A stretch of 64,000 nt of DNA from a virus. The notes under the pieces were generated by a model. It was not told the DNA's origin and searched no databases. It saw only the letters and a program-made list of their open reading frames with translations. Each line of letters begins with the position of its first letter. Position 1 is the stretch's first letter. The position numbers were made by a program, and so were the translations under genes. The stretch spans positions 64,001-128,000 of IMG/VR virus record IMGVR_UViG_3300043444_000502. One strand, given 5' to 3'. Of this stretch, positions 1 through 61,333 are shown one piece after another.

Positions 1-2
1 TT

Positions 3-809
3 GATGCATTTAAAAAGTTTATTAATTATACGCTTTATAAAGAAAGAGCAGTATCTAATACTCAATTAGGTAGCGTTAGTGCATTAAATCTAAGTACACT
101 ATTATCTGGTTTAGATGGTGCTAGTAATGTATTTGCAAATCAAGATGTGGATCCTAAACAAATTCAACGTATTAAAGATATGAAATTAAATTTTTCATAT
201 GAATTATTATTAGCTGAATACTTAAGTGGTTCTACAATCCACGTTGATCAATTAAAATCAGTTGTACACTTATTTTTACGCAGATGGTTTAAAGAAATTT
301 TTACAGATAATCGTCAAATGGTATTATTAAATCTTACAAATGAAAGATTCCAAAAAACATTTGATTATACAGAAGATGATTTTAATATTAATGCAAAAAA
401 TCCATTAAGTAATATTTCTGCATTAAAATATTATGCAGATGAAACAATTTGGGATACGCCAACTGACTTATCTAGTGGAGTATATGGTATTTGCAAACTT
501 GAAGATTTATCACAAGATCAAATTAATGGATTACGTGATACTATTTTATCGGTATTCACTAATTTTGAAGGTATGTTAATTGATAATAATAACTTATCAA
601 TTATGAATTGGTTAGAATATGCTGTTGCTGATTCTATTACTAAAGAACAATTAGATCAAATTTTATCACATGTGATTAAACATCCATTTGATACATGTTT
701 AGTTCCTAGATTTGATTTCCAAAATGTTAATTTCCCATTTATTTTAGATTGTCTAAAAAAGAAAAATAATGCTCAAGGAGCTGAGTTATCAGTTTATAAG
801 TTGATTTAA
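3..809 (+). CDS. Hypothetical protein, 5' end outside window
   Basis: The reading frame is open from the first bases of the window, so the true start lies upstream. About 268 C-terminal residues are visible. A GTG at 147 is the first possible internal start but has no clear ribosome binding site, and the codons before it look equally coding. The protein is mixed alpha/beta and rich in Asn, Asp and Leu, with no signal peptide, membrane segment or motif that I recognise. It stops one base before the first radical SAM gene, so it probably heads or belongs to that transcription unit. Confidence 0.75.
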   Translation, partial: DAFKKFINYTLYKERAVSNTQLGSVSALNLSTLLSGLDGASNVFANQDVDPKQIQRIKDMKLNFSYELLLAEYLSGSTIHVDQLKSVVHLFLRRWFKEIFTDNRQMVLLNLTNERFQKTFDYTEDDFNINAKNPLSNISALKYYADETIWDTPTDLSSGVYGICKLEDLSQDQINGLRDTILSVFTNFEGMLIDNNNLSIMNWLEYAVADSITKEQLDQILSHVIKHPFDTCLVPRFDFQNVNFPFILDCLKKKNNAQGAELSVYKLI

Positions 810-810
810 A

Positions 811-1881
811 ATGCGTGATTTTATTATTGAAAAGAAACGTGATCCTGAACAAGAATATACGCTTCATTTATTTGAACATTGCAATCTAAGATGTTCATTT
901 TGCTGGCAAGACCATGAAAATAAAGCAGGGTTGGATACAGTAATTGATAAATTAGATCCTATTGAACTATTCCTTAAAACGGAACAGCGCCACTCTGTAG
1001 TATTCAATGCTATGGGTGGCGAAGTTTTTTCCGATGAAATATTTGATGAAAAACTTTTGCAATCATATAAAGATTTATCATGGGGCATTAAAGAGTTAGG
1101 AAAAAAATATAATAAACTCGTTAAAATTAATTGGGTTACAAACTTAGTAACTCATAAAATTGATTATATTGAAGATTTACTAAATTATTCAAAAACTATT
1201 GGTTTAGAAGCACAATTAGTTACATCATATGATCCGCGCGGAAGATTTAATATAAATCAGTTCGAAGTTTTTAAAAAGAATATGGAATATTTTGGCAAAA
1301 GAATCACATGCATTAGTATGTTATTAAATGCACCAAATATTGAATACATCTTAAAAGATAAAGATTATTATTTCAAAAAGCTTTATAATGAAGGTTATTA
1401 CATATATTTTGATTATTATATGCCAGATGAATCAGCTGAATTTCAAGCTCCATCTGACATTCAATTAAAAAATGTTTTTAAACATTTAATAGATAATTAT
1501 CCTAATGTTCATCCAATATCTGACTGGATTAACAATGATAAAAATTATATTTCATGCAGAACTAGTAAATTGGTTTTAGCTGATGGAACAATCTGTAATT
1601 GCGGTAATTTAGTACAAGACGAAAAAGTTATTAAATTTTATTCATCTAAAATAGAAAAGATGGATAATTCAACCATTGAAAATAATTTTTTACAAAAATA
1701 TAATTGTGCTTCATGTGAATATTTGGATAGATGTACATTAAGTTGTTTTATGCAACATGATTATAAATTTAGGGAAGAACTTGATGAGTGTGTCTACAAA
1801 CTTACGCACAGATATATCGATGATGTTAGATTACAGCGAAAAGCCAACACCTCTATCGATAGTCCCTCCAAATCATATTGA
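811..1881 (+). CDS. Radical SAM protein with SPASM-like C-terminus
   Basis: A 356-residue enzyme with the radical SAM CxxxCxxC motif at Cys24, Cys28 and Cys31 (sequence CNLRCSFCW). These residues bind the [4Fe-4S] cluster that cleaves S-adenosylmethionine. A GGE segment near residue 70 fits the SAM-amino-group motif. The last 110 residues hold clustered cysteines (CNCG, CASC, CTLSC and a late C), the pattern of SPASM/twitch domains that bind auxiliary Fe-S clusters in peptide-modifying enzymes. It starts one base after the previous stop and overlaps the next gene by about 98 bases. The family assignment is firm; the substrate is unknown. Confidence 0.88.
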   Translation: MRDFIIEKKRDPEQEYTLHLFEHCNLRCSFCWQDHENKAGLDTVIDKLDPIELFLKTEQRHSVVFNAMGGEVFSDEIFDEKLLQSYKDLSWGIKELGKKYNKLVKINWVTNLVTHKIDYIEDLLNYSKTIGLEAQLVTSYDPRGRFNINQFEVFKKNMEYFGKRITCISMLLNAPNIEYILKDKDYYFKKLYNEGYYIYFDYYMPDESAEFQAPSDIQLKNVFKHLIDNYPNVHPISDWINNDKNYISCRTSKLVLADGTICNCGNLVQDEKVIKFYSSKIEKMDNSTIENNFLQKYNCASCEYLDRCTLSCFMQHDYKFREELDECVYKLTHRYIDDVRLQRKANTSIDSPSKSY

Positions 1882-2383
1882 AGTATCTTTAGATACTGTA
1901 CCAACAAATTATCCGTATTTACCTAGGATTTGTTCTAGACAAGGATATGTTTTTATGTGGCATACAAATAAAAATGAATATCCAAATTTGTATCAAGTAT
2001 CCCAAAATTGTAAAACTGAATCTCAGTGGTTTACTACTAAAGACCAAAATGGCATCGAATTAGCATTAGCACTTATTCATGAATATGACAATGAAGTAAT
2101 TATTGGATGTGTAAAAACAGCAGGTTATTTAAAAAATGAACCTAAAGAGTTTGTACATACACTTATAAAAAATGTATGGAAAGACATAATTAAAACGTTT
2201 GGACATAAAAAAATTATATGTCCAAGTAGTTCATATCTAGAATACATACATTTATTTTTAAATCAAAAGAGAATTCCACATACTCCATATTGTAAAAAAT
2301 ATATGACTAAAAATAAATTCTATAGAATTGAAAACTATTGGATTAGAGATGGACTTAATAATAAAACCGACAGAAAAGTGTAA
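1784..2383 (+). CDS. Hypothetical protein between two radical SAM genes
   Basis: About 199 residues. I chose the ATG at 1784 over the upstream in-frame 1757 because AGGGAAG at 1771-1777 is a good ribosome binding site for it. A later pair of ATG codons near 1820 is possible. The protein has aromatic and Cys residues but no motif I can assign; its mixed alpha/beta look could fit an acyltransferase-like fold, which is only a guess. Its 5' end lies inside the upstream radical SAM gene and its 3' end inside the downstream one, so it is translationally linked to both and may be a partner or recognition protein. Confidence 0.65.
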   Translation: MSVSTNLRTDISMMLDYSEKPTPLSIVPPNHIEVSLDTVPTNYPYLPRICSRQGYVFMWHTNKNEYPNLYQVSQNCKTESQWFTTKDQNGIELALALIHEYDNEVIIGCVKTAGYLKNEPKEFVHTLIKNVWKDIIKTFGHKKIICPSSSYLEYIHLFLNQKRIPHTPYCKKYMTKNKFYRIENYWIRDGLNNKTDRKV

Positions 2384-3374
2384 TTTTAAATGCACGTTTT
2401 GTTCTTCTACACATATTACTGATGATAAAAGTGTAGAACTTGATCATGCAAAAATCTTTCAGTTCTTAGAAAGATATCCCAATACAAATACTATTATTGT
2501 TAATGGAGGAGATCCATTAATGATGCCTCCAGAATATTATCAAGAAATACTAGATTGGTTAGATGAACGAAATTATAAAACTACCATAAGTTTTACAACA
2601 AATCTTTGGCCGTTTTATAAGAATCCTACAAAGTGGTCAAATATATTTTCACATAAAAGAGTTGGAGTGACTACATCATTTCAATATGGTGGAGGTCGTC
2701 TTAAAGGAGATTTAACAGAATTTAGTGAAGAAGATTTTTGGAATGTTTCGAATTTATTTGTAACATATTTTGCTTATAGACCTAACTTTATCTCAGTTAT
2801 TACAGAAGAAAATGAACATCTTGCAATTAAAAACGTTGAACTTGCAAAAAAGATGAACACAGAATGTAAATTAAATTATGCGATGTCTTCAGGACCTCCT
2901 GTAAAATTTAAAGGTATTATTATGGGTCAAGAAGGTAAACCATATCTTCTTGCAAAGATCTATGAAATTTATGTTGAAATTTGGAAACGCGGATTAGCTC
3001 CTTGGGAGTTTAATACTAAACAAATGATGCAACGATTAAAGGGTCATGCAACATGTTGTCCACAAAATCGTGATTGTGATTCTGGTATCAGAGTTCTTCA
3101 ACCATCTGGAGATTATTATTCATGCGGTGCATTTGGAGATGATAGGCAATATCCAATTAATTTCTACAAAGAAATGAATGGAGAATTTATTCAACCATTA
3201 AAGCATCAGTTTGAATTACAAACAATGACTCCTAATTGTTACGGTTGTTCTATGTTCGATATATGTAATGGTTGTAAAAAAACAATCAAAGATCACAAAG
3301 ATTACAATTTAACAGAAATACATTGCAAAAAAATGAAATCATTAGCTCAGGATATAATTTATGCTAATAACTGA
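2349..3374 (+). CDS. Radical SAM protein with SPASM-like C-terminus
   Basis: A 341-residue radical SAM enzyme. From the ATG at 2349 the cluster motif is Cys11, Cys15, Cys18 (CNFKCTFC), the usual N-terminal place. A TTG at 2328 is less likely. A GGDP motif follows in the first third. The C-terminus holds many Cys (CCPQNRDC, then SCGAF, CYGCSMFDICNGC and a last CKK), as expected for SPASM-type auxiliary clusters. It overlaps the previous gene by 35 bases and the next by 14. It differs clearly from the radical SAM proteins at 811 and 3897, so it is not a recent duplicate. Confidence 0.88.
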   Translation: MDLIIKPTEKCNFKCTFCSSTHITDDKSVELDHAKIFQFLERYPNTNTIIVNGGDPLMMPPEYYQEILDWLDERNYKTTISFTTNLWPFYKNPTKWSNIFSHKRVGVTTSFQYGGGRLKGDLTEFSEEDFWNVSNLFVTYFAYRPNFISVITEENEHLAIKNVELAKKMNTECKLNYAMSSGPPVKFKGIIMGQEGKPYLLAKIYEIYVEIWKRGLAPWEFNTKQMMQRLKGHATCCPQNRDCDSGIRVLQPSGDYYSCGAFGDDRQYPINFYKEMNGEFIQPLKHQFELQTMTPNCYGCSMFDICNGCKKTIKDHKDYNLTEIHCKKMKSLAQDIIYANN

Positions 3375-3900
3375 TATACACAATGAGTTTTTTAATAATG
3401 GTTTTTGCAAATTTAATGATCCAGAAGTATTTAAATTTTTACATGACATAGATTCTTGGGAATGGAAAAACTGGAAAGATCAAGGATTACAATTAATTAA
3501 ACGCAATCATACTATTGAATCTGCCATAATACAAACACAAAAATATATTGGTGAAAAATATATTTGTAAATTGGATGAAAATTATGTTTTGGGTGACGAG
3601 TGCGAAATAGTTAATGGAATGGATGATGCAACATTAACGTGGCATAATGACAATATTGAAGGTTATAATTTGTGTGTTTTATTATATTTTGATTCTATGG
3701 ATGAAGATATCGGTGGCATGACTCGTTTTAGAGATATTAACACTAAAAAATTGACTGGAGAATTTTATCCACAGCAATATGATGTTTCTTTTATGAATCA
3801 TTGTTTAAGATTTCAACACGTTGTAACTCCATTAATTTTAGATATGCCAAGAAGAGTTGCGTTATTTAATTATAAAATAAATGAGATTTTGACAGGATGA
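3361..3900 (+). CDS. 2OG-Fe(II) oxygenase-like protein
   Basis: A 179-residue protein with the layout of a 2-oxoglutarate/Fe(II) dioxygenase. An HxD pair (His95, Asp97 in WHNDN) is followed by beta-rich sequence, a distal His153 (FQHVV) and Arg164/165 before a hydrophobic strand. In this family HxD...H binds iron and the late Arg binds the carboxylate of 2-oxoglutarate. The size matches prolyl/lysyl-hydroxylase-like phage proteins. It overlaps the radical SAM genes on both sides (ATG inside the upstream stop region; its TGA overlaps the next ATG), so it is part of the same operon. Substrate unknown. Confidence 0.75.
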   Translation: MLITDIHNEFFNNGFCKFNDPEVFKFLHDIDSWEWKNWKDQGLQLIKRNHTIESAIIQTQKYIGEKYICKLDENYVLGDECEIVNGMDDATLTWHNDNIEGYNLCVLLYFDSMDEDIGGMTRFRDINTKKLTGEFYPQQYDVSFMNHCLRFQHVVTPLILDMPRRVALFNYKINEILTG

Positions 3901-4829
3901 TACTTTCAATCAATCCATGGTATTATTGTAATTTCAGATGTGAATTTTGTTATCTTACAGAAAAACAATTATCTGATAAAAAGCTTTTATCGCTTGACAA
4001 ATTAGCGAATATATTAGGCGAAATTGTTGCGCATAAACAAATTGATATGGTTGATTTATATGGCGGAGAATTGGGATTATTACCAAAGGAATATTGGAAT
4101 GATTTGATACAATTATTGCATAATTATGGAATATATGATATTAATTTAATTACTAATTTATCAATGATTAATGATATTACTATAGATGAACGAGTTTATA
4201 CATCAGTTAGTTATGATTTTAAAGCTCGTGAAGATTTTTTCAGAGTGTGGAAAAATATGGCTTTAATGAATAAACCATTTTCTATATTAATGTTAGCATC
4301 TCCAGGATTAATTAGCGAAAGCATTGACGATATAGTTTCAATGTTTAATTCTTTAAAAAATCTTGAATCTGTTGAAATTAAACCATACAGCAAAAATCAA
4401 GCCAATCAGTTTTCTATCAAAGATGATATTTACGAAGAATATGTCAAAAAATGGATATTACATAAAGATCGTAAATTTAAATTGGTTAATGAATCTCTCC
4501 TGGAATCTGTAGTAAATAGATCTAGGAATAGTTTTTCTGATGATCATGTTTATATTACACCCAATGGAAAATATGGCGTATTAGAATTTGATTTGAATGA
4601 TAATGAATATTTTTTAGAATATGATACTTTAGACGAATATTTTGCTTGGTGTGAAACTGAAAAAAAGAGAGTTTCTAAAAATAAATTCTGTAGTAGTTGC
4701 AAGTATTTTGGAAGGTGTTTATCAGAACATCTTAGAGATGTTAAAAGTTTAGATAATAGTTGTAATGGATATTATAAATTAATTGATTGGTATGAAAGAC
4801 TGGAAAATAAAACAAGAAATATATCATAG
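3897..4829 (+). CDS. Radical SAM protein
   Basis: A 310-residue radical SAM enzyme with Cys11, Cys15, Cys18 (CNFRCEFCY) close to the N-terminus and a GGE motif near residue 60. The C-terminus has a compact Cys group (FCSSCKYFGRC, then SCNGY), which looks like a short twitch or SPASM remnant binding one extra cluster. It starts by a 4-base ATGA overlap with the preceding oxygenase and overlaps the next gene by 38 bases. It is the third and smallest radical SAM enzyme in the cassette. Confidence 0.87.
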   Translation: MILSINPWYYCNFRCEFCYLTEKQLSDKKLLSLDKLANILGEIVAHKQIDMVDLYGGELGLLPKEYWNDLIQLLHNYGIYDINLITNLSMINDITIDERVYTSVSYDFKAREDFFRVWKNMALMNKPFSILMLASPGLISESIDDIVSMFNSLKNLESVEIKPYSKNQANQFSIKDDIYEEYVKKWILHKDRKFKLVNESLLESVVNRSRNSFSDDHVYITPNGKYGVLEFDLNDNEYFLEYDTLDEYFAWCETEKKRVSKNKFCSSCKYFGRCLSEHLRDVKSLDNSCNGYYKLIDWYERLENKTRNIS

Positions 4830-5190
4830 GTTGAATATTCAACATGATGATGATTTAAGTACTAAAGATATTCAAATTAGTACTAATATTATTGAAGATG
4901 CTATTAAATATTTTAATGAACGAGATCTTGGTTGGTTATATCCAGCTAAAAGTTATATGGTAGCTATATGTTATGCTAAATGGATAGCTAAAGAATTTAA
5001 TGAAAATAGAATGGATCTTTTAAATGATCCAGATTTATTACATGGTAATGATCCATATTTTGTGCCATATACACAAGATCCAGATACATATATCGGAATT
5101 TTTCAAAAGATTAATAGTTGGGATTTTGACGAATCTGCCGGAATGGTGCCAGATGTTAGATCATATTTCGAAAAAGAATTTATGTTATGA
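4792..5190 (+). CDS. Hypothetical protein in modification cassette
   Basis: A 132-residue, mostly helical protein rich in Trp, Tyr and Asp, with a conserved-looking block around GNDPYFVPY. The ATG at 4792 is preferred to an upstream TTG at 4783. It lacks cysteine clusters and an HxD motif, so it is neither a radical SAM enzyme nor an oxygenase. It sits between the third radical SAM gene and two tandem oxygenase genes and overlaps both neighbours. I do not recognise the family. Confidence 0.7.
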   Translation: MKDWKIKQEIYHRLNIQHDDDLSTKDIQISTNIIEDAIKYFNERDLGWLYPAKSYMVAICYAKWIAKEFNENRMDLLNDPDLLHGNDPYFVPYTQDPDTYIGIFQKINSWDFDESAGMVPDVRSYFEKEFML

Positions 5191-5699
5191 AGTTATATGA
5201 TCTGTGGCCAACTCGTGTAGTTAATGTAGATGTTCCATTGGACCTATGCACCAAAATTTATTCACAACATATCAATGTTCAATCTAAAGATTATGAAGAA
5301 GTCCTAGATGATAATGATAAAAGAACGTTGTTAGAATATGTGAATCGTTATTACCTGGCGGAATATGATATATGTGATGGTTGGATTAGAACTCTAACAT
5401 CTAAAGGTCATAATAATTTCGAATTGCACTGTGATAGTCATTATGGCAATCAATTGGTTGGTGTACTTCAATTGTTTGGTGATGAGGATAGAGGCGGAGA
5501 TATTAAATTATATGATCCAGCTTGGAGAAATCCTCAATGGATGTCAGATACTAAAAACAAGAATAGTAACACATTTGTAGTACCATTTAAAGCAGGTCAG
5601 TTTATTATATTCCCAGCTAATGTTTGGCATAGTGTTGAAACTTATTATGGTGAATCAAATAGAGTCACTTTAAATTTAATGTTTAGAAGAATAACATGA
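5187..5699 (+). CDS. 2OG-Fe(II) oxygenase superfamily protein
   Basis: A 170-residue protein starting with a WPTRV strand, as is common in the phage and marine-bacterial 2OG-Fe(II) oxygenase family of the PF13759 type. Likely iron ligands are His81 and Asp83 with the distal His148 (VWHSV); Arg159 (SNRVTLNLMF) would bind 2-oxoglutarate. The RGGDIKLYDP block is also typical of this family. It overlaps both neighbours by 4 bases (ATGA). With the following gene it forms a tandem pair of related but diverged oxygenases. Confidence 0.82.
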   Translation: MKLYDLWPTRVVNVDVPLDLCTKIYSQHINVQSKDYEEVLDDNDKRTLLEYVNRYYLAEYDICDGWIRTLTSKGHNNFELHCDSHYGNQLVGVLQLFGDEDRGGDIKLYDPAWRNPQWMSDTKNKNSNTFVVPFKAGQFIIFPANVWHSVETYYGESNRVTLNLMFRRIT

Positions 5700-6268
5700 T
5701 AAAACAACTTTGGCCAACATATTTCATGCAAGACACTATGGAAACTAGTATTATGCATGAAATGATATATTATCTAACTGTAGAATGTGACTTCAATAAA
5801 CCTCCATCTGATTTTGGATTAGAGAATATATTAGATAGTAAACATCCATCAGTATTAAAGTTCAAACAACAAGTTATTATTCCATCATTTAATAAGTATT
5901 TAAAAAATACCATCAATAAACAAATTGATGATTGGGCTGGATATAAAATGAAAGGTTGGTTAGCAGGAACTGGAAATGATTATAGTTTAAATTACCATAA
6001 TCATAGGGGAGCTCAAATTTCTGCAGTTTTTTATTTGTTATGTGAAGATCATAATAAAGGAGGTAATATTGCTTTTACTGATCCTAGACAAAACGCCAAT
6101 AGAGGATATGATGAAAACTTTACTCCATGGTTTAATGATGAAATTTTAAAGGTAAAATCTGGTGACATCGTAGTATTTCCAAGTTTTTTATATCATTTTG
6201 TCAGCACATATCGAGGATCTATGCGGTTGGCAATGCCTGTAGATTTATTTTTACATACTAACTCCTAG
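5696..6268 (+). CDS. 2OG-Fe(II) oxygenase superfamily protein
   Basis: A 190-residue relative of the preceding gene. It has the same LWPT N-terminus, an iron-binding HxH at His101/His103 in place of HxD, GGNIAFTDPR, a distal His167 (LYHFVS) and Arg177. HxH variants occur in this family. It overlaps the previous gene by 4 bases and is the last gene of the cassette. The next gene begins only after a gap of about 56 bases that carries a late promoter, so this is a clear end of the unit. Confidence 0.8.
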   Translation: MIKQLWPTYFMQDTMETSIMHEMIYYLTVECDFNKPPSDFGLENILDSKHPSVLKFKQQVIIPSFNKYLKNTINKQIDDWAGYKMKGWLAGTGNDYSLNYHNHRGAQISAVFYLLCEDHNKGGNIAFTDPRQNANRGYDENFTPWFNDEILKVKSGDIVVFPSFLYHFVSTYRGSMRLAMPVDLFLHTNS

Positions 6269-6280: not shown

Positions 6281-6288
6281 TATAAATA
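6281..6288 (+). promoter_or_regulatory. T4-type late promoter box
   Basis: Exact TATAAATA, the T4 late promoter element recognised by gp55-RNA polymerase. It lies 37 bases before the ATG at 6325 in the gap that separates the modification cassette from the fibre genes. Confidence 0.75.
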
Positions 6289-10053: not shown

Positions 10054-13000
10054 ATGGCAGAGTTTAAACTTGGTAGATTAAAGTTCTGGTGGAAAGGTGA
10101 GTGGCAAACAGGTCATGCTTACGTCAAAGATGATGTAGTTCGCTTTGGCGGTAAGTCATACGTTTGTATCGGCTCACACAATTCCGGAATTAACGATGAG
10201 AGCTTTTATACAGCTCTTGAAACAGCTCCTTTCAAATGGGAGTTAATGACTGATGGTATTCAGTGGCAAGGCGAATGGACAACAGGCACTTACTATAAAG
10301 AAGGTGATGTTGTTAAGTTTGGTTCTGACACATATATCTGCGTCGATGGAAATACAGCTTCTGCTGATTTCATGGCTGACCAAGATGCTGGTAATTGGGA
10401 AAACTTCGTTAATGGAGTTGAACTAGAAGGCGATTGGAATTCTTCACACAATTACCAAGTTGGTGATATCGTACGTTTAGGCGGTAATACATTTATTGCT
10501 AAGCGTGACAATACGAATGCAAAACCGACTGTTAGTACAGACGACTGGGGTGTATTCGTTCATGGTTTAAAGTGGAAAGGTCAATATGCTCCTACCACAA
10601 CATATTTCCCTGGTGATGTAGTTAAAGAAGGTTCTTCTTCATATGTAGCTATTGTAGAAACAATTGGAACTGCACCATCTACAGATTTAGCTAATACTAC
10701 ATGGAATGCAGTTGCTGAAGGCGACACATCTGATGTTTTAACTACAACAGGTGATATCGCTGTTTATGGCACAACAAATATTCAACGCTTACCTGCTGGC
10801 GCCGGTAATGCAGTTCTTCAAATTGATGCAGTTTCTGGTGTTCCTGCTTGGAAGCAAGATGTTGAAATTGCAGGCGATTTGATGGTACAAGGTGATGCAC
10901 ATGTTGTACAAGGCGACGTGTATCAAGGTCCAAATGCTCAAGATTATACACAAGACGTTGATATTTTCGATGTAACATCAGAAATTACTAGTGTTACAAA
11001 ATCGGCGACTCAAGTATTCATCTATTATGCTGTTGGTTCAGCATTAGCTAATGCTAATGGTGGTTATCATATCGATATGTCAGGTGTAGCTGATCCTAAC
11101 ACATTAATGAATTCATCATTCTCTGTTGATAGCAATAATACAACTAATCGTGTAATTACTATTACAGTCGCAGGTTTAACTGGAACTGGTACAGTTAATT
11201 TAACTGGTGCTACAGTTTCTTTATATGGTCCAAATGCATATGCAGGTATGACTGATGCATCTGGCGTATTCGTTGGTAATGCTGATTCATTTGTACAATT
11301 TGCTCTTAAGAATACAAATAACGGCACTGGTGCTTCTACTGACTTAATCGTTTATGCTGATAACGGTGATAATTCATCTGGTTGGATGGATATGGGTATC
11401 ACTTCATCACAATTCGATAATCCTGACTTTACAGTTACTGGTCCAAACGATGGTTATATTTTCATGTCTGCTCCTACTGGAACAGCAGGTAAAGGTGACT
11501 TGATTCTTGGTACTGGTGACGGTGGTCAACACAATGACATTGTAATGTTTACTGGTGGTTTTGATGCTGCTAACGTAAAGATGAGATTGATTGGTACAGC
11601 TCGTCCAGAAATTTCAGAATCAACAGGTATGCCAACTGGTCGTACAATCGAACCAGGCGTTGAAGTATATTTAACTTCAGTCGCAGAAAACTGGGATGAA
11701 GGTGCACTTCGTGTTGTTGGCGGTCTTGGTGTTCAAGGTAATATCATTACGAAGGGTGATCTTCGTGCTGAAATGGGTGTTATTTGCCAAGGTTCAAACG
11801 CTAAGAAATTAACAGAAGATGACTATGTTTACCCAGGTTATGTTGGTTTAACAAATCCTTCTGCAATTATGACAGGTAATGCAAACTCATTTGTACAAAT
11901 GTCATTGAAAAACTTTAGTACTGGCGATTTAGCTTCTACTGACTTAATTCTTTATTCTTCAGCCGGTGATAATAACTCTGGTTGGATCGATATGGGTATC
12001 TGTTCTGAGAACTATGATGATCCATCATTCGGTGTAACAGGTCCTGGTGACGGTTACATTTTTATGTCAGCTAAAGAAGGTTCTACAACTGAATTAGGTA
12101 ACTTATACGTTTCAACATCATCTAATGGTGTTCAAAATGATATCGTATTCTCAACTGGTGGTTTTGAAGATAGTTCGTATGAACGTATGCGCATTATTGG
12201 TTCAGCACGACCAGGCAAACAAGCTGGTGTTGAAATTTATTCTTCAACAAATTCAACAAGTACTACAACAGGTGCTTTACGTGTTAACGGTGGTATTGGT
12301 TTACAAGGTAACTTAAACGTTGGTGGTGATGTTAATATTAATGGTAACACAACTATCCAAGGTACAATTGTTATTGCCGGTGGTTCAACAACTGTTACAT
12401 CTCAAAACTTAGCTGTTCAAGATCCGATGATTTTCTGTGCAGACGGTAACTCTGCAGACATCGTTGATATGGGTGTTGTTGGTTCATATCGTCTTGCGCC
12501 AGATTCATACACAAGCGTTGATTTAGTAGGAGCTACATTTGCTGCTGCAGGAGAAACGCTATATATCACTAAAACTGCTCATGGTGCAACAAATTTAGAT
12601 CGTATGACTATTAGCAGTGCTAATAAAACTGAATATAATGGTACATACGAAACTATTACTATTGTAGACGCAAATACTATCACAGTACAAAAAATTGGCG
12701 CTACATGGAATGGTCCAGTTACAGCAACTGCAACATTAGGCGTATTTGTGAATGGTTTACGTTATGCAGGTTTAGTGCGTGATCACGTTGATGGTCGCTT
12801 TAAGTTATTCACTGCATATCAAGTTTCTAATAAACCTACAACTGTAATTAATCAAACTGATGCTCAAGATGCATTCTTAGAATTAGGTGCAATCAAAGTT
12901 ACTAATACTACAGCGTCATCAAGTTATACAACTGGTGCGGTAATTGTTAGTGGCGGCGTGGGTGTTTCTGGTGCGATGTATGTACAAAATGCATTATATT

Positions 13001-13329
13001 GCGGCAGCGATATTACAGCATGGTATTCATCTGATAGTCGCTTAAAAGATAATGTTAAACCTATTGAAGGCGCATTAGATAAGATTTCTAAAATTGGTGG
13101 TTATGAGTTCGACTGGAACGCAACTGCTAAAGAACAATTCCCAGATCGTGAAACACATGATATCGGTGTGATTGCTCAAGAAATTCAAGCAGTACAACCA
13201 GAAGTTGTTGTTGAACGTGATAACGGTTATTTAGCTGTTAACTATGAGAAGCTTGTTCCACTATTAATTCAAGGTATTAAGGAACTACAAGAGGAAGTTA
13301 AAGCTCTTCGTGCAAAAATTGGAGAATAA
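10054..13329 (+). CDS. Large tail fibre with S74 intramolecular chaperone
   Basis: A 1091-residue fibre. Residues about 10-210 hold four repeats of the form WKGEW...Y..GDVV.FGG..Y.C, like CBM5/12 chitin-type carbohydrate-binding modules. Residues about 390-560 and 600-740 are a diverged internal duplication (each with GWxDMGI and DGYIFMSA). A GALRVxGGxGxQGN block repeats near 550 and 745. The last 100 residues are a peptidase S74/endosialidase-type chaperone: SDSRLK places Ser993 and Lys998 five apart, matching the known Ser-Lys self-cleavage dyad, followed by IGVIAQE and a C-terminal coiled coil. Released after trimerisation in known examples. Good RBS (ACGAGG). Confidence 0.9.
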   Translation: MAEFKLGRLKFWWKGEWQTGHAYVKDDVVRFGGKSYVCIGSHNSGINDESFYTALETAPFKWELMTDGIQWQGEWTTGTYYKEGDVVKFGSDTYICVDGNTASADFMADQDAGNWENFVNGVELEGDWNSSHNYQVGDIVRLGGNTFIAKRDNTNAKPTVSTDDWGVFVHGLKWKGQYAPTTTYFPGDVVKEGSSSYVAIVETIGTAPSTDLANTTWNAVAEGDTSDVLTTTGDIAVYGTTNIQRLPAGAGNAVLQIDAVSGVPAWKQDVEIAGDLMVQGDAHVVQGDVYQGPNAQDYTQDVDIFDVTSEITSVTKSATQVFIYYAVGSALANANGGYHIDMSGVADPNTLMNSSFSVDSNNTTNRVITITVAGLTGTGTVNLTGATVSLYGPNAYAGMTDASGVFVGNADSFVQFALKNTNNGTGASTDLIVYADNGDNSSGWMDMGITSSQFDNPDFTVTGPNDGYIFMSAPTGTAGKGDLILGTGDGGQHNDIVMFTGGFDAANVKMRLIGTARPEISESTGMPTGRTIEPGVEVYLTSVAENWDEGALRVVGGLGVQGNIITKGDLRAEMGVICQGSNAKKLTEDDYVYPGYVGLTNPSAIMTGNANSFVQMSLKNFSTGDLASTDLILYSSAGDNNSGWIDMGICSENYDDPSFGVTGPGDGYIFMSAKEGSTTELGNLYVSTSSNGVQNDIVFSTGGFEDSSYERMRIIGSARPGKQAGVEIYSSTNSTSTTTGALRVNGGIGLQGNLNVGGDVNINGNTTIQGTIVIAGGSTTVTSQNLAVQDPMIFCADGNSADIVDMGVVGSYRLAPDSYTSVDLVGATFAAAGETLYITKTAHGATNLDRMTISSANKTEYNGTYETITIVDANTITVQKIGATWNGPVTATATLGVFVNGLRYAGLVRDHVDGRFKLFTAYQVSNKPTTVINQTDAQDAFLELGAIKVTNTTASSSYTTGAVIVSGGVGVSGAMYVQNALYCGSDITAWYSSDSRLKDNVKPIEGALDKISKIGGYEFDWNATAKEQFPDRETHDIGVIAQEIQAVQPEVVVERDNGYLAVNYEKLVPLLIQGIKELQEEVKALRAKIGE

Positions 13330-13335: not shown

Positions 13336-14007
13336 ATGGCAACACGTTTAACACAGACCGGTATCGAATATCCAGACGGTACCGTTCAAATTCAACGCTT
13401 TGATGGCAATGATGATCGTGGCGGTCTTTTACAGATCGCTACGTATACTGGTAGTAGTACGTGGTACAAACCTGATGGAGCACGTCAAATTCGTGTTCTA
13501 GTTATTGGTGGCGGTGGCGGTGGTTGCGGTCACACAGAATCTGGTGGTGCAGGTGGTTTTGCTGAAAAATGGATTGATGTTTCTAGTTGGGCAAATGGTA
13601 CTGCTGTTACTGTAACATGTGGTGGTGCTGGAGATGGTAGAAACTATTTCCAAGGTTGTGGTAATGGCGGAACATCTTCTTTCGGTGGATATTGTTCAGC
13701 TTCTGGTGGTCATGGTGCTAACACACAATGGGGTCATACAGGAGGAACAGGCGGTGTAGGTTCCGGCGGAGATATCAACCTTAGAGGTGGCGGTGGCCAT
13801 GGCCATGATAATGAAGCTGCTTCTCAAGGTGGTACAGGTTATTTTGGTGGCGGTTCATTTGGTAACCACCACAGTTATCGCCCTCACTATGCTGAAGGCA
13901 CAAACCATAATGCACCCGGTGGTGGTGGAGCTGGTAACTGGATTACTAATCACGGTCGCGGAGCATATGGTTCTGACGGTGCTGTCATCGTTTATAGCTA
14001 CGCATAA
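13336..14007 (+). CDS. Glycine-rich adhesin, copy 1 of 3
   Basis: A 223-residue protein. The N-terminus has a TxxGIEYPDGTVQ motif, then a strand-rich part (TWYKPDGARQIRVLVIGGGG), then about 130 residues of Gly-rich loops with His, Cys, Asn and aromatics, and a last strand (GAVIVYSYA). Such polyglycine loop domains form receptor-binding tips in T-even gp38-like adhesins and other phage fibres. It follows the large fibre by 6 bases and is the first of three tandem paralogues of nearly equal length. Confidence 0.8.
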   Translation: MATRLTQTGIEYPDGTVQIQRFDGNDDRGGLLQIATYTGSSTWYKPDGARQIRVLVIGGGGGGCGHTESGGAGGFAEKWIDVSSWANGTAVTVTCGGAGDGRNYFQGCGNGGTSSFGGYCSASGGHGANTQWGHTGGTGGVGSGGDINLRGGGGHGHDNEAASQGGTGYFGGGSFGNHHSYRPHYAEGTNHNAPGGGGAGNWITNHGRGAYGSDGAVIVYSYA

Positions 14008-14019
14008 GGAAAAAGATTT

Positions 14020-14685
14020 ATGTCTATTAAATTAGGTCAAGCAGGTGTAGTATATCCAGATGGCGTAGCACAATCAACTAAATATGATACTTCGCTAGAT
14101 AGAGGTAAGGTTATTAGAGTTGACTTCTGGACTAGTAATGCTACGTGGAATAAACCAGCGGGTTGCAGAAAAATTTTCGTACAAGTAATTGGCGGCGGTG
14201 GTGGCGGTTGTGGCCACTGTGAAGCTGGTGGTGCTGGCGGTTATGCAGAAAAATTAATCGATGTTACTGGTATAGATAGTGTATCAGTAACAGTTGGTGG
14301 TGGTGGAGATGGTCGTAACTATCATCAAGGTTGCGGTGGCGGCGGTACAACATCATTTGGATCATATCTATCAGCATCTGGTGGTAATGGTGCAAATACT
14401 TGGGGTTCTCATACTGGCGGTCATGGCGGTGTAGGTTCTGGTGGTGACGTTAATTTACACGGCGGCGGAGGTCGTTCACATGGTGATCAAGGCCAATCTA
14501 AAGGTGGCGAAGGTTATTTTGGTGGAGCTAGTGCATCAGGACATCATGGCGGCAATTTCTACTCACACTACGCCGAAGGTTTAAATCATTGTCCTCCAGG
14601 TACAGGAGGTTCAGGAGAGTGGACATCACATTCTCGTGGTGCGTATGGTGTACAAGGTTGCTGTATCGTATATAATTATTCTTAA
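14020..14685 (+). CDS. Glycine-rich adhesin, copy 2 of 3
   Basis: A 221-residue paralogue of the preceding protein, with the same plan: YPDGVAQ near the N-terminus, TWNKPAGCRKIFVQVIGGGG, a long Gly/His/Ser-rich loop domain and a closing strand (CCIVYNYS). The frame blocks are well kept while the loops between them differ, as expected if loop variation tunes receptor recognition. Spacing of 12 bases on each side shows co-translation. Confidence 0.8.
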   Translation: MSIKLGQAGVVYPDGVAQSTKYDTSLDRGKVIRVDFWTSNATWNKPAGCRKIFVQVIGGGGGGCGHCEAGGAGGYAEKLIDVTGIDSVSVTVGGGGDGRNYHQGCGGGGTTSFGSYLSASGGNGANTWGSHTGGHGGVGSGGDVNLHGGGGRSHGDQGQSKGGEGYFGGASASGHHGGNFYSHYAEGLNHCPPGTGGSGEWTSHSRGAYGVQGCCIVYNYS

Positions 14686-14697
14686 GAAGATAAAGTT

Positions 14698-15360
14698 ATG
14701 TCAGTAAAATTAGGTCAAACAAATATTACGTACCCAGACGGTACTACGCAAGCAGCTAAATATACATCTGCAGATGATAAAGGTAATTTACTAAGTATTC
14801 AATCATGGACTAGTAATGGTACATGGACAAAACAAGCTGGTGTAAGAAGCATTCGTGTTATGTTAGTTGGTGGCGGTGGTGGTGGATCTGGTCATGGTCA
14901 ATCTGGTGGTGCTGGCGGTTATTCTGAAAAAAGAATCGACGTATCATCTTGGGCTGATGGCACTACAGTAAGCGTCACAATTGGTGATGAAGGCGGTGGC
15001 GCACATTCAAATAACTCAGGCGGTCAAGGTGGCACAACATCATTTGGTTCATATTTGTCTGCAACAGGTGGTCGAGGCGCTAATCAAGATTGGGGTCATT
15101 GCGGTGGTCATGGTGGCGTAGGTTCTGGCGGCGACATCAATCTTCGTGGTGGTGGTGCATCAGGACATGATAACCGCGGAGGTCGCGGTGGTGCATCATT
15201 CTTCGGCGGTTCTAAATTCTCAGGTTGGCCAAATCACCATTTCTCACATCAACATGAAGGACATGTTCCTCCAGGTGCTGGTGGGTGTGGTGAACACGTT
15301 AATCATTCGCGCGGTGCGCATGGTGCAAGAGGTATCTGTATCGTATATAACTATAGTTAA
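14698..15360 (+). CDS. Glycine-rich adhesin, copy 3 of 3
   Basis: A 220-residue third paralogue (YPDGTTQ, TWTKQAGVRSIRVMLVGGGG, GSGGDINLRGGG, ICIVYNYS). It shares blocks with both others; the GVGSGGD[IV]NL block is common to all three. The Gly-rich loops are the variable part. It ends the adhesin cluster 30 bases before the halogenase gene. Confidence 0.8.
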   Translation: MSVKLGQTNITYPDGTTQAAKYTSADDKGNLLSIQSWTSNGTWTKQAGVRSIRVMLVGGGGGGSGHGQSGGAGGYSEKRIDVSSWADGTTVSVTIGDEGGGAHSNNSGGQGGTTSFGSYLSATGGRGANQDWGHCGGHGGVGSGGDINLRGGGASGHDNRGGRGGASFFGGSKFSGWPNHHFSHQHEGHVPPGAGGCGEHVNHSRGAHGARGICIVYNYS

Positions 15361-15390: not shown

Positions 15391-17013
15391 ATGCAAGTTA
15401 AAAGTGTCTTAATTGTTGGTGGTGGTAGTTCAGGATGGATGACAGCTGCAGCGATTAAAAAACAATTGCCACATATTGATATTACATTAGTTGAATCTGA
15501 TAAAGTTCCAACTATTGGAGTGGGCGAATCAACAATTGGTCAAATCAACAGTTTTATGATGGCTGTTGGTTTAAAAGATAAAGATCATGAATGGATGCCT
15601 AAATGTAATGCTACATATAAAACATCCATTAGATTTACAGATTTCAGAGAAAAAAATGAAAAGCCTAATACTTTTCATTATCCATTTGGAATATTTGATT
15701 TAACTGACAAAGAACGTGGTGCGATGGATTGGTTCTATATGCAATTAGACGATCCATCTATTCCTCCAGAAAATTTTGCTGAATTTTATCATGATCACGT
15801 TATCATGGCAAATCAGATGAAATTTACTGATAACAAAGATCATGAAATTAGAATGTTTAATTTTAAGTTTGATACTGCATATCATATGGATGCAGCGTTA
15901 TTTGGACAATACTTAAAAAATAATATTTGTATTCCTGAAGGTGTTAAACATATTGTTGATGATGTTACAGGAGTAATTCAAAATGAAGATGGTTATGTAA
16001 CTGGTGTTACAACGGTAACAAATGGTGTATTAAAAGCTGACCTATTTGTTGATTGTACTGGTTTTAAATCTATGTTATTAGAAGGTGCTATGGGAGCAGA
16101 GTTTGTTTCTTTCCATGACACGCTAATGAATGATAGTGCAATTGCTACAATTATTCCATATCTAGACAAAGATAAAGAAATGTCTAGTGTAACAAACTGT
16201 ACAGCAATTGATGCTGGTTGGGTTTGGAATATTCCATTATATAATCGAATCGGCACAGGTTATGTGTATTCTTCAAAGTTTGCAACTAAAGAAGAAGCTG
16301 AAGCACAATTTAGAAAACATTTGGCTTCAGATAGAATGGATTATGTCGATGAACGTTCTAAAGAACGTGCTGAACAAGCAGAATTTAGACATATTAAAAT
16401 TAAACATGGATGTCATAGACGTTCTTGGATTAAAAACGTAGTAGGTGTTGGTTTAGCTAATGGGTTTATTGAACCATTAGAATCCACTGGTCTTATGTTA
16501 ACGCATGAAGCAATTATGAAATTAATTGATGTGTTAGACATGAGAGATGGCTATGTAAATCAATATGATATTGATACATTCAATTTTACAATGTTTGATC
16601 AAGTAAATGGATTTAAAGAATTTATTTCTTTACATTATACTCTTTCTAAGAGAAATGATACTCCATATTGGAAACATGTAACTGAAGGTTTTACATATTC
16701 CAATGAAATGATTGAATGGAAACCTAAAATTAGAAATCCATATACAGATTTAGCATATAGAAATTTAGTAAATCACACATATGGTCCAGATCAGGGCGGT
16801 TTAATTTATATTGCAGCTGGTCATGGTTATAATCCATTATCTAAGCGTTGGATTGATGATGAAGCTCAACGCATTAATATAAATATGGGATATGATATAA
16901 AGAAAACTAGGAAGTTGTGGGAAGATCACGTTAAAGAGTTACAAATAACTTTAGACAAACTTCCGACACATTATCAATGGTTAAAACAAAATTATTACAA
17001 TAATCAGGAGTAA
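15391..17013 (+). CDS. Flavin-dependent halogenase (tryptophan-halogenase family)
   Basis: A 540-residue protein with every hallmark of flavin-dependent halogenases (PF04820). These are the FAD-binding GGGSSG at 10-15, the WxWxIP motif as WVWNIP at 277-282, a lysine at 77 in the position of PrnA Lys79, and FIEPLESTG at 359-367 near the chloride/flavin site. These enzymes use FADH2, O2 and halide to make HOX, which passes through a tunnel to the lysine. Its length equals tryptophan 7-halogenases. No flavin reductase gene is visible, so reduced flavin probably comes from the host. A related cyanophage enzyme (VirX1) has been characterised. Substrate unknown. Confidence 0.9.
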   Translation: MQVKSVLIVGGGSSGWMTAAAIKKQLPHIDITLVESDKVPTIGVGESTIGQINSFMMAVGLKDKDHEWMPKCNATYKTSIRFTDFREKNEKPNTFHYPFGIFDLTDKERGAMDWFYMQLDDPSIPPENFAEFYHDHVIMANQMKFTDNKDHEIRMFNFKFDTAYHMDAALFGQYLKNNICIPEGVKHIVDDVTGVIQNEDGYVTGVTTVTNGVLKADLFVDCTGFKSMLLEGAMGAEFVSFHDTLMNDSAIATIIPYLDKDKEMSSVTNCTAIDAGWVWNIPLYNRIGTGYVYSSKFATKEEAEAQFRKHLASDRMDYVDERSKERAEQAEFRHIKIKHGCHRRSWIKNVVGVGLANGFIEPLESTGLMLTHEAIMKLIDVLDMRDGYVNQYDIDTFNFTMFDQVNGFKEFISLHYTLSKRNDTPYWKHVTEGFTYSNEMIEWKPKIRNPYTDLAYRNLVNHTYGPDQGGLIYIAAGHGYNPLSKRWIDDEAQRININMGYDIKKTRKLWEDHVKELQITLDKLPTHYQWLKQNYYNNQE

Positions 17014-17614: not shown

Positions 17615-18907
17615 ATGAACTTTGACAAAATTATATCTTTTGGATATCCACAATTTACTGAACAACCGCATTTATATTACACGTATTTAAAAAATGCACA
17701 TCCAAGATATCGTGCTGAAATTCGTGATTTATATTTTTCAGTACCATACAAATATAAATGGAATGGTCATGATTTTATGTATGGTGACGTTATGGCTGCA
17801 TCATCTGATGATAGACATTTTGAATATATGTTAAAAATTCAAAATGAATTTGGAATTGCTCTATCATTAACGTTTAACGAAACATATCCAAATAAAGAAT
17901 TATGCGGTGATAAAGATGTATTAAATGGATTTATTAATCATATTGGTAAATTCTATGAAATGGGTATTAGATCGTGTACAATATCACACGTACACATGAT
18001 GGCTATGGGTATTTTGCAAAAAAACTTTCCAGAAATGAAATGGAAAAATACAGTTAATCATATCATTACTAAACCCCAACAAGTAGTTGACATGTATACA
18101 TTGGGTTATGATGTTATTAATTTAGATCGTTCATTAAATCGCGATATGGATGCTTTAAAAGCAATTCAACCGCTGCGTAAAAAATATCCTGAAATGGAAC
18201 TGAGTTTACTAGTTACAGAAGGATGCATGCCACACTGTCCATTTAAAGTAGAACATGATACCATGAATAAAGAACCTGGTTATCAATATTGGCATAATCA
18301 TGGTAATGTTTCATGCGGGATTTGGAGAAATGTTGAAACAAATGAATTGCCTAGAATTGGCACTGATATGATTTGGGGCGATAAAGAAACTTTTTATGCA
18401 TATGCTGAAATGGTAGATTATTTTAAATTTTCAGGTAGAATGGGAAAACTTCCAGATAATGCAGATGCTGAAAATGATAAATTCGTTTGGTCGATGGTTC
18501 AACCAAAATCAAAAAGGCGTTATACTTACAATCCGTGGTTTTTAAATCATTTAGATCAAGGCACATACGCAACGGCAGATTGTCTACAAGATGTCATTGA
18601 GAATGATTTAGGTCCAATTAGTCCAACATGGGAATTTGGAAGATTTATTAATAAAACACATGATTGTAAAACCACATGGAATTCAATCAATGCATTAAAT
18701 GATGGTAACGTGTGGGCTACCAAAAAGGGTAAAGCTTTAAATCATGTTTTAAAAAATTGTAAAAATGAATGTTGGGATTGCCATGCATGTGAAAGAACGT
18801 TTGGAAGTAAAGATTTTGATTCTCTAATTGAAATCGATAGAGATGTTTCTGTTTTACAAGGTAATTTAGAACATTTTAAAGGCATTCCAATTATCAAGCA
18901 ATTATAA
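17615..18907 (+). CDS. U32-like TIM-barrel Fe-S protein
   Basis: A 430-residue protein. The order of strands and helices (residues 85-200) with NTVNHIITKPQQVVDMYTLG, then INLDRSLNRD, then LSLLVTEGCMPHCPF resembles the TIM barrel of the U32 'peptidase' family (TrhP, RlhA, UbiU/UbiV). Members of that family bind an Fe-S cluster and take part in hydroxylation of RNA or quinones. Cysteines near 200-230 (EGCMPHC, SCG) and a C-terminal group (CKNECWDCHAC) could hold clusters. It stands alone between a terminator and a late promoter. The family call is tentative. Confidence 0.5.
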   Translation: MNFDKIISFGYPQFTEQPHLYYTYLKNAHPRYRAEIRDLYFSVPYKYKWNGHDFMYGDVMAASSDDRHFEYMLKIQNEFGIALSLTFNETYPNKELCGDKDVLNGFINHIGKFYEMGIRSCTISHVHMMAMGILQKNFPEMKWKNTVNHIITKPQQVVDMYTLGYDVINLDRSLNRDMDALKAIQPLRKKYPEMELSLLVTEGCMPHCPFKVEHDTMNKEPGYQYWHNHGNVSCGIWRNVETNELPRIGTDMIWGDKETFYAYAEMVDYFKFSGRMGKLPDNADAENDKFVWSMVQPKSKRRYTYNPWFLNHLDQGTYATADCLQDVIENDLGPISPTWEFGRFINKTHDCKTTWNSINALNDGNVWATKKGKALNHVLKNCKNECWDCHACERTFGSKDFDSLIEIDRDVSVLQGNLEHFKGIPIIKQL

Positions 18908-37824: not shown

Positions 37825-38274
37825 ATGCTAACTCTTGAACAAATTTTAGAACAGTGGAAAAAAGATTGCGAGATCGATGATATGGAACTCGACAAATCTT
37901 CACGTGAAACACCAAAACTACATGCAAAATATATTGAACTATTATCATTAGCTAAACTACAAAAGCAACGTAAAGATATGGAATTTAAACGCTTGCTAAA
38001 AGATAAATTCATGTGGTATAACGGTAAAATGGACAAAAATACAATGGATGAAAAAGGTTGGGAATACGATCCATTTGGTGGACTAATTAAACCGTTAAAG
38101 AGTGATATGGATTATTTTTATGAAAGTGATCCACAAATTCAAGCGCTTCAATCTCAAATTGAATATTGGAAGACTATGATAGATACTATATCAGAGATTG
38201 TTTCTAATATTACATGGAGACATCAAACTATTTCAAATATGATTAAGTGGCGACAGTTCACTTCAGGCGTATGA
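37825..38274 (+). CDS. uvsY: UvsY recombination mediator
   Basis: A 149-residue homologue of T4 UvsY (137 residues), which loads UvsX recombinase on gp32-coated single-stranded DNA. The helical layout, a KDKFMWYNGKMDK block and the QALQSQIEYWKTMIDTISEI region match the family. It starts behind a sigma70-like promoter and overlaps the next gene by 4 bases. UvsX itself is not in this window. Confidence 0.88.
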   Translation: MLTLEQILEQWKKDCEIDDMELDKSSRETPKLHAKYIELLSLAKLQKQRKDMEFKRLLKDKFMWYNGKMDKNTMDEKGWEYDPFGGLIKPLKSDMDYFYESDPQIQALQSQIEYWKTMIDTISEIVSNITWRHQTISNMIKWRQFTSGV

Positions 38275-38924
38275 TACCTACAATTGTTATTGATAATTTT
38301 TTCCCTCAACCAGATAATGTGCGAAATTATGCATTATCACTTAAAGAATGGCATGCTGATGAAGAGTTGAGATGGCCAGGAATTCGTACTAATAGTTTAC
38401 ATACCTTTGCGTTAGATAAACATGCAGAATTAGTATGGTCTATCTACAATTGTTTACCTCGTCATTTAGCTATGAAATATGGTTCATTTAAAAAATTTGA
38501 TGCGATGTTTCAAATTGTTAGCGAAGATTATATTGATGGTTGGATTCATGATGATGGTGCAGATTTAGATTTTGCGGGTTTAATTTACTTAAATAAAAAT
38601 CCGTGCGATGATAGCGGAACTTCAATATATCACCATATAACTGATGAATTAGAATATTTTGGTGAAGAAGAACGAGAACTAAAGAAAAAATTTCTATCTA
38701 AACCAGAACACCGCAGAGATTACGATTTATTAAAAAATAATAGACATTCACAGTTTAAAGAAGTTACTAAAATAGAAAATGTGTACAATAGATGTATCAT
38801 TTATGATGCATATGCTTGGCATAGAGCGAATAAATATTTTGGTAAAACAAAGGAAGATTCTAGATTGACACTAGTATTCTTCGGTAAATTTGATGATGGA
38901 CAAACTAACAATATCCAAAGTTAA
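38271..38924 (+). CDS. 2OG-Fe(II) oxygenase-like protein (DUF6445-like)
   Basis: A 217-residue protein. I chose the ATG at 38271 (ATGA overlap with uvsY). The iron site is visible as WIHDDG (His then Asp) and the distal WHRANKYFG, with Arg in SRLTLVFFG for 2-oxoglutarate. It resembles the DUF6445 group of small dioxygenase-like proteins. It sits between uvsY and uvsW, two recombination genes, and overlaps uvsW, so it is co-expressed early or middle. Substrate unknown. Confidence 0.72.
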   Translation: MIPTIVIDNFFPQPDNVRNYALSLKEWHADEELRWPGIRTNSLHTFALDKHAELVWSIYNCLPRHLAMKYGSFKKFDAMFQIVSEDYIDGWIHDDGADLDFAGLIYLNKNPCDDSGTSIYHHITDELEYFGEEERELKKKFLSKPEHRRDYDLLKNNRHSQFKEVTKIENVYNRCIIYDAYAWHRANKYFGKTKEDSRLTLVFFGKFDDGQTNNIQS

Positions 38925-40790: not shown

Positions 40791-41420
40791 ATGGAATTTG
40801 AACATTATTTTCACGAATTAAAATCACCTGGATATATCACGGCTAAAGTGCCTGCAGAAATTATGCGAGTATTTGATAATGCAGTGAATGATGTAAAGCT
40901 AAACGGCGGTCAAGATATGGCACATAGATTAGCTGGTCATCTCGATAATCAAATCAATTTGATGAATAGAAAAGATTGTGTTGACGCTATCACGCCATTT
41001 GTATATGACTTAGCTCGTTTATATGATATGCGCTTTGATTATATGCGTAGATTTCAAACGCGTGAAGATGATCAATTGCTATATCTACAAGCGCTATGGT
41101 TAAATTTGCAAAAGAAACATGAATTCAATCCATTGCATAAACATGGTGGTGTATATTCATTTGCTATATGGCATACTATTCCATATGATATTAATGATGA
41201 AATAAATATGTTTAAGACAAAACATAGTAAAGCATCTTGCTTTGAATTTGGATATGTTGATGCGTTAGGTTTGCAACAATTTGAAACTATACCAGTCAAT
41301 AAATCGTATGAAGGTGTAATATGTTTCTTTCCAGCAGTACTTCATCACGGCGTATATCCATTCTTTACTAGTGATGACTATAGAATAAGTATTGCTGGTA
41401 ACTTATACTTTAAATCATAA
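40791..41420 (+). CDS. 2OG-Fe(II) oxygenase-like protein
   Basis: A 209-residue protein with FNPLHKHGGVYSFAIWH (metal-site His pair in the HxH style) and a distal AVLHHGVYPF followed by YRISIAGNL, where Arg would hold 2-oxoglutarate. Marine T4-like phages often carry this type. It follows the Sm-like gene by 9 bases and ends the uvsY-uvsW unit. Confidence 0.75.
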   Translation: MEFEHYFHELKSPGYITAKVPAEIMRVFDNAVNDVKLNGGQDMAHRLAGHLDNQINLMNRKDCVDAITPFVYDLARLYDMRFDYMRRFQTREDDQLLYLQALWLNLQKKHEFNPLHKHGGVYSFAIWHTIPYDINDEINMFKTKHSKASCFEFGYVDALGLQQFETIPVNKSYEGVICFFPAVLHHGVYPFFTSDDYRISIAGNLYFKS

Positions 41421-59573: not shown

Positions 59574-59917
59574 TGGCAATCTCAACACCTATCGGTCAGA
59601 TTAGGTACAACCCAAATACTCTATTTCAAGAGATTTGGGATGGAAAAACTTGGGTAGAAGTGGATGATACAGGCTTTACACAAATGCCTATTCATACCAT
59701 TTCTGCTAATACTATATCTACAACCGCAGCTTCTAATATTGTTAATACTAATTTGACTGACAACGCTAAAGAAGATTTATATCAATTTTTAAAATCAAAT
59801 CTAAGAGTTGGCGAATACTTAGATGAAAATGGTAAAATTGAATATGTTCAATTAGAACTGCGAGAAGGCGAAGGTTGCACTTGGGAAACAATTCAACGTG
59901 TAAGAATTAAACAATGA
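59573..59917 (+). CDS. Small hypothetical protein
   Basis: A 114-residue protein. It starts with a beta motif like that in fibre or virion proteins (QIRYNPNTLFQEIWDGKTWVEV). One-base overlap with the previous gene and ATGA overlap with the next place it in a nucleotide unit, which is an odd home for a virion-like sequence. Function unknown. Confidence 0.62.
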   Translation: MAISTPIGQIRYNPNTLFQEIWDGKTWVEVDDTGFTQMPIHTISANTISTTAASNIVNTNLTDNAKEDLYQFLKSNLRVGEYLDENGKIEYVQLELREGEGCTWETIQRVRIKQ

Positions 59918-60932: not shown

Positions 60933-60957
60933 ATTATTATACAATTAAGGAAATAAC

Positions 60958-61332: not shown

Positions 61333-61333
61333 T

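Follow-up and report, generated by a model that had tools for sequence, protein, structure and literature searches.

The 64,000-nucleotide stretch analysed here (the window) covers positions 64001-128000 of the 167.6-kb virus record IMGVR_UViG_3300043444_000502 and begins inside a gene unit that probably encodes a maturation system for a fibre-associated virion protein, resembling the systems that make ribosomally synthesized and post-translationally modified peptides (RiPPs). The whole unit comprises 13 genes (record 60,937-70,268), i.e., a JmjC/cupin gene, radical S-adenosylmethionine (SAM) enzyme A, a 191-amino-acid (aa) substrate-like protein, X, Y, and a cassette of eight genes. The cassette forms the right two-thirds of the unit, the start of which lies 3.9 kb further left. 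In total, four radical SAM enzymes are encoded together with the JmjC/cupin protein, which has an invariant HxD...H triad. The basis of this reading was observed directly: conserved linkage, a near-invariant C-terminal core, intact catalytic motifs, and fibre context. The substrate protein would be present in the virion and would have a role in adsorption.

In the sequence-only reading of the window, eight joined open reading frames (ORFs) at 811-6268 had been described as a linked modification pathway for a peptide, a virion protein or a host surface glycan, with no precursor. Each of the eight ORFs was confirmed on the + strand; they are joined to one another by overlaps, and a 1-bp gap separates the first from the gene before it. 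A multi-step pathway with a protein or peptide target agrees with the dedicated candidate protein encoded inside the operon, and the glycan target was not supported. The precursor-like gene had escaped notice because the window edge cut it off; it lies approximately 1 kb to the left of that edge.

The tailed protein and the enzymes linked to it

The substrate-like protein ends in VCHASCHSSCHSSRGRR. By a DNA pattern search for this tail, matches were found in at least 120 viral stretches, nearly all of them being ORFs whose end is exactly at RR. One viral match (L045) was discarded as a chance low-complexity match. Because the pattern search was biased towards the motif, radical SAM A alone was also used as an IMG/VR query, which gave 361 relatives in one scan, and 80 loci were kept. 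The tailed protein was located downstream of A in 76 of these 80 loci, and the remaining 4 contigs end within 250 bp. In 71 loci, the distance from the A stop codon to the substrate start was between -26 and +38 bp. In the reverse test, all of the motif records (50/50) had phrog_1802 radical SAM genes, usually four. The gene order is not due to chance because it recurs in many viral contigs.

The core was studied in proteins selected by a sole criterion, i.e., an RxRR end downstream of A. This gave 65 distinct proteins (33 clusters at 70% identity and 13 at 50%), in which three CH pairs, the first Ser, and three Arg were invariant, and the third position of each H-x-S was S, N or A. Outside the tail, the mean pairwise identity was 28%, and pairs less than 25% identical elsewhere still shared 84% of the core in a set partly chosen by motif. 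Because the tail is near-invariant while the body varies and the enzymes are tied to it, we strongly infer that the tail is the substrate of the enzymes.

The substrates range roughly from 120 to 310 aa across the family. In a "twin" architecture, two tandem substrates of about 127 aa are accompanied by several divergent radical SAM-like proteins, and one substrate (L125) has two complete CHxS-type cores in tandem (CHSSCHDSCHSNVVCHSSCHDSCHSARGRR). The AlphaFold model of a homologue (L161) showed a confident alpha/beta domain with a mean pLDDT of 85 and a low-confidence tail. In BFVD, the fold search matched further substrates of this family, besides three proteins of phage ctijX18.

The three radical SAM proteins that had been recognized in the cassette scored above the PF04055 cut-off (29.8, 33.6, and 32.1 bits) and matched phrog_1802 (E 5e-46 to 3e-56), and each has intact CxxxCxxC and C-terminal Cys residues. 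For the SPASM model TIGR04085, A passed (33.1 against a cut-off of 27), whereas B (20.8) and C (24.3) were below it. The JmjC/cupin protein exceeded the Pfam cut-off of PF08007 and has the Fe ligands HxD...H. By family score and ligands, it is predicted to be a JmjC-type hydroxylase acting with 2-oxoglutarate (2OG); known relatives hydroxylate His or Arg. Three oxygenases with HxD/HxH...H...R sites had also been proposed. All of the sites are present, and two of the proteins passed PF13759, whereas the protein at 3361-3900 matched PF13640 only weakly (E 0.003).

The DTrS proteins are a divergent radical SAM-like family with several copies per locus in twin loci, e.g., L042:836-6097 (- strand) and phage DT01 L008:10909-12940. 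The single copy scanned (L008:10909-11958) has CxxxCxxC, yet no radical SAM match was given by Pfam or NCBIfam.

Of the partner proteins, phrog_20737 (window 4792) is widespread among the loci of the system. Protein U (1784) is limited to a part of them, i.e., 35 ORFs in 80 loci, and tblastn gave no match for it in isolate phages. PDB sequence searches with profiles of X, U, and the substrate gave nothing credible, and the PDB fold search with X had no match at E <= 0.001. A PqqD-like RiPP recognition element was not matched by Pfam or NCBIfam in X, Y, U, phrog_20737 or the substrate, although a cryptic one may exist among them. Such elements are not universal among RiPP systems.

In the proposed mechanism, a single dedicated protein would be modified at its C-terminal core, CHx[SN]-CHx[SN]-CHx[SN]-R-G-R-R, by the four radical SAM enzymes together with the JmjC-type oxygenase and at least one 2OG-Fe(II) oxygenase, and X, Y, U, and phrog_20737 would be recognition or scaffold partners. 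The folded N-terminal domain would then position this modified end at the tail fibre or its tip, and there it may help the particle to engage a feature common to many host envelopes. Most likely, the radical SAM enzymes would form His-x-Ser and/or Cys cross-links, and the oxygenases would hydroxylate His, Arg or Ser. H-x-S is similar to three-residue cyclophane motifs. Peptide cross-linking maturases are the nearest curated relatives of A, at scores too low for assigning a bond type. Because the tail is fixed and does not diversify, strain-specific receptor binding seems less likely than a universal function, which might be a structural cross-link, a metal centre or a conserved envelope target.

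Occurrence and fibre context

The linkage was found in T4-like phages, several unrelated jumbo phages, and Bdellovibrionota chromosomes. It had been stated that genes scattered in relatives would speak against the pathway; the linkage was kept in all of these groups, with rearrangement in Bdellovibrionota and in the twin architecture. By tblastn, D and A hit the identical seven isolate records, i.e., Sinorhizobium phage Phosso, Agrobacterium phage Atu_ph07 (two entries), Pseudomonas phage pPa_SNUABM_DT01, and Burkholderia phages FLC6, FLC8, and SURPRISE13. Four isolate loci begin with cupin, radical SAM A, and substrate; X, B, C, and D follow, accompanied by extra genes that differ between the loci. 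The substrate of every one of the four ends in CHxSCHxSCHxxR[GS]RR.

In 84,980 species genomes, the tail pattern gave 19 matches, and most of the true ones were accompanied by partner genes. Several were in Bdellovibrionota, and others resembled phage contigs binned with bacteria. Four matches with an internal motif (L132, L136, L140, and L144) were rejected as chance low-complexity sequences. The matches L138, L142, and L148 belong to the Rhodobacteraceae genome Water_Bin34, which had 8 Peptidase_S77 matches; its bacterial label is unreliable because several T4-like phage contigs appear to be included. Radical SAM A was detected in 13 of 129 genomes of one order, once on a 4.15-Mb contig, and the bacterial sequences form one clade (99/97) among phage lineages. 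The bacterial core variants YCHTNVPTPPPCHASRGRR, YCHGNFPPPCHGSRGRR, and YCHSNHCSHSNHGSRGRR kept CHx[SN] and the RGRR end. In seven Bdellovibrionota loci, one of them on the 4.15-Mb contig, a gene with an S74-type chaperone end and a small partner protein are placed beside the system, and a prepilin-type N-terminus is visible in six of the seven fibre genes. A probable B12-binding radical SAM protein was noticed by eye inside the bacterial version of the system in Halobacteriovoraceae (L230:2572-4311).

A fibre-like protein with a single C-terminal domain (fibC) was found upstream of the unit in 75 of the 76 phage loci with room for it, and in nearly all twin loci with room, the fibC gene ended within 10 bp of the first substrate. 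The unit is located between a VrlC-like protein (phrog_358) and a head-tail adaptor, in the host recognition cluster of T4-like phages. Radical SAM cassettes at this place are mentioned in the paper on that cluster (PMC7029224). The fibre connection of the cassette, suspected earlier from the genes that follow it, is supported, and the unit is placed in a host-recognition/fibre island.

In Atu_ph07, the substrate is gp170 (C-terminal peptide ...CHSSCHASCHNSR; coding sequence (CDS) numbering checked). CDS 170-215 were described as a virion-protein cluster defined by mass spectrometry (PMC6102473), and gp170 is its first gene. In phage PA5oct, a protein with the fibC domain carries an electrospray ionization tandem mass spectrometry (ESI-MS/MS) annotation. 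In the L215 group, Gly_rich_2 is fused with the N-terminal 46 aa of the substrate (identity up to 78%), and the core-bearing remainder forms the next ORF. The adhesin-type domain Gly_rich_2 is also present at window 13336-15360.

Weighing the explanations

A secreted RiPP could also explain why SPASM radical SAM enzymes related to the antibiotic-peptide maturases PapB and DynA are accompanied by a dedicated precursor-like gene, and why substrates are duplicated in the twin architecture. In that case, the modified core would be cleaved off during infection or lysis and set free to serve as a bacteriocin or a signal, and the N-terminal domain would be no more than a leader. However, the N-terminal part is well folded instead of being a short leader, the unit has no recognised protease or exporter (a genome-wide search was not made), and the position is fixed behind the phage fibre gene or, in bacteria, beside a pilin-S74 fibre. 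Antibiotic cores usually diversify, whereas this core is near-invariant. A secreted product is therefore considered unlikely. Because the unit is inside a fibre island and its oxygenases match broad families, the enzymes might modify fibre proteins or host surface glycans, and the CH-tailed protein might be an unmodified metal-binding accessory or enzyme partner, as unmodified Cys-His repeats are able to bind metal. The near one-to-one linkage of radical SAM A and the tailed protein, and a core fixed while the bodies vary, as expected for an enzyme recognition site, make this quite unlikely, and the unit has no recognised glycosyltransferase. Radical SAM genes of marine phages were interpreted earlier in terms of auxiliary metabolism (PMC5332604, PMC7150976), by which the genes would serve host Fe-S or cofactor metabolism during infection, and T4-like marine genomes rich in radical SAM genes also hold Fe-S assembly genes (PMC5332604). 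However, an A-type Fe-S carrier was not found in this record, and the conserved dedicated substrate and the fibre linkage would be left unexplained. This role is highly improbable.

Several points weigh against maturation of a fibre-associated virion protein. The fibC domain was undetectable in isolates FLC6 and DT01, and it is present in PA5oct-like and Campylobacter phages without the system. The bacterial partner protein and phage fibC showed no significant similarity (hhalign probability 11%), by which homology is not established. The detection of gp170 in virions would follow from the stated cluster boundary. The folded domain of the substrate has no solved relative in the PDB fold search at E <= 0.001, and most loci are metagenomic and partly near-duplicates. 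The PA5oct virion protein gp360, encoded after the fibC gene of this phage, was considered as a substrate homologue, and the profile gave no support.

A broader proposal is tentative, and we regard it as possible though doubtful: a fibre whose chemical tip is encoded genetically and built by enzymes, i.e., a cross-linked and hydroxylated Cys-His peptide, perhaps metal-loaded like a metallophore, may engage a universal target of the outer envelope. Unrelated large phages and predatory bacteria, the latter on pilin-anchored fibres, would use it, and it would be the first radical-SAM-matured adhesion device.

Gene arrangement and comparison with known systems

The five left genes have the same direction with gaps of -23 to +2 bp, and Y ends 1 bp before radical SAM B. 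The junctions of the cassette, from Y/B onward, are +1, -98, -41, -14, -4, -38, -4, and -4 bp (Table 1). The start codon of radical SAM C is probably ATG 2343 rather than TTG 2328. The GC content of the cassette is 27-29%, against 31-41% in the remaining window, which suggests acquisition as one block. The late promoter noticed earlier at the cassette end is a T4-late-type box; in the window, this sequence occurs 12 times on the + strand (about 5.6 expected) and not on the - strand. The same sequence inside radical SAM A, 201 bp ahead of the substrate gene, may be chance.

Table 1. Genes and elements of the unit and its borders. L005 denotes the upstream stretch; its coordinates equal those of the record minus 46000.
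Feature	Position	Strand	Remark
Fibre with fibC domain	record 59854-60936	+	directly before JmjC/cupin
JmjC/cupin	record 60937-61431	+	PF08007, HxD...H
Radical SAM A	record 61409-62455	+	fourth radical SAM gene, just left of window
191-aa substrate-like protein	record 62455-63030, L005:16455-17030	+	conserved C-terminal end
X	record 63033-63698	+	
Y, 376 aa	record 63679-64809, L005:17679-18809	+	3' part = window 1..809
Radical SAM B	window 811..1881	+	PF04055, phrog_1802, CxxxCxxC
Partner U	window 1784..2383	+	C-terminal half GNAT-like by eye only
Radical SAM C	window 2343..3374	+	SPASM-like Cys cluster
2OG-Fe(II)-type oxygenase	window 3361..3900	+	HND...H...R; weak family match
Radical SAM D	window 3897..4829	+	one C-terminal Cys cluster
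Conserved partner phrog_20737	window 4792..5190	+	
2OG-Fe(II) oxygenase	window 5187..5699	+	PF13759; HCD...H...R
2OG-Fe(II) oxygenase	window 5696..6268	+	PF13759; HNH...H...R
T4-late-promoter-like box TATAAATA	window 6281..6288	+	ahead of fibre genes

Some other genes of the window were also noticed. A 1091-aa fibre (10054-13329) has CBM_5_12 matches and a C-terminal Peptidase_S74 chaperone. At 13336-15360 and 15391-17013, three consecutive Gly-rich proteins of fibre-tip type (Gly_rich_2 in the two scanned) are directly followed by a tryptophan halogenase (PF04820, 362 bits), and a second halogenase was found at 57593-59071 (308 bits). Halogenation is another possible modification of fibre proteins. 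A 430-aa phrog_1458 protein with clustered Cys (17615-18907) is located near the halogenase and fibre genes. Two more oxygenase-like proteins are encoded outside the cassette at 38247-38924 and 40791-41420 (DUF6445; PF13759).

In the open-access literature, no report was found in which these genes are connected with a precursor or with a protein of the virion, and jumbo-phage papers, in their available parts, list the genes without function. Until now, radical SAM genes of phages were interpreted as metabolic or left as unexplained extras. The link to one substrate with a near-invariant core and to an attachment fibre turns them into a testable pathway. If this holds, peptide chemistry built after translation is displayed where virus particles, and predatory bacteria, touch the target cell; proof that the protein is both in the virion and modified would make this a new kind of virion chemistry. 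Radical SAM chemists would gain a large natural family in which the core is defined, the four enzymes are clearly separable, and cultured phages are available.

The genomic island is the same as the cluster for host recognition in T4-like pelagi- and cyanomyophages (PMC7029224), and the S74-ending MAT fibres of Bdellovibrio are phage-like (PMC10769870); the accessible text of these papers does not describe the substrate, the maturation system or the pilin-S74 link. CxxxCxxC with auxiliary-cluster Cys and a linked precursor with a conserved core, as in radical SAM/SPASM RiPP systems, were found here. By sequence, the system is predicted to work as a RiPP-like pathway of this type, outside the Hxs, PapB, and DynA families by score. 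It is similar to the PapA/PapB ranthipeptide and dynobactin/darobactin (DynA, DarE) systems in that a SPASM radical SAM enzyme is encoded next to a protein with a conserved C-terminal core. PapB and DynA were the best curated relatives of radical SAM A, but with 56 and 55 bits, far below the cut-offs of 340 and 450. Unlike those systems, this one has four radical SAM enzymes with oxygenases, a substrate protein with a folded domain, a viral origin, and a fibre link. The His-Xaa-Ser system (HxsABCD) also combines two or more radical SAM enzymes with H-x-S repeats in a linked protein, and three H-x-[SNA] motifs occur in the substrate studied here. However, Cys precedes each H-x-S here, the tail ends in RGRR, HxsA gave no family match, and for HxsB and HxsC the enzymes scored 28.4 and 29.7 bits against cut-offs of 370 and 267.9. 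The maturases of anaerobic sulfatase and quinohemoprotein amine dehydrogenase are SPASM radical SAM enzymes which target a real protein rather than a small peptide. Their similarity is only distant (36 and 30 bits), and their substrates differ. The JmjC/cupin protein shares the HxD...H triad with ribosomal-oxygenase-type hydroxylases, but here it is a short stand-alone domain tied to the CH-tailed protein.

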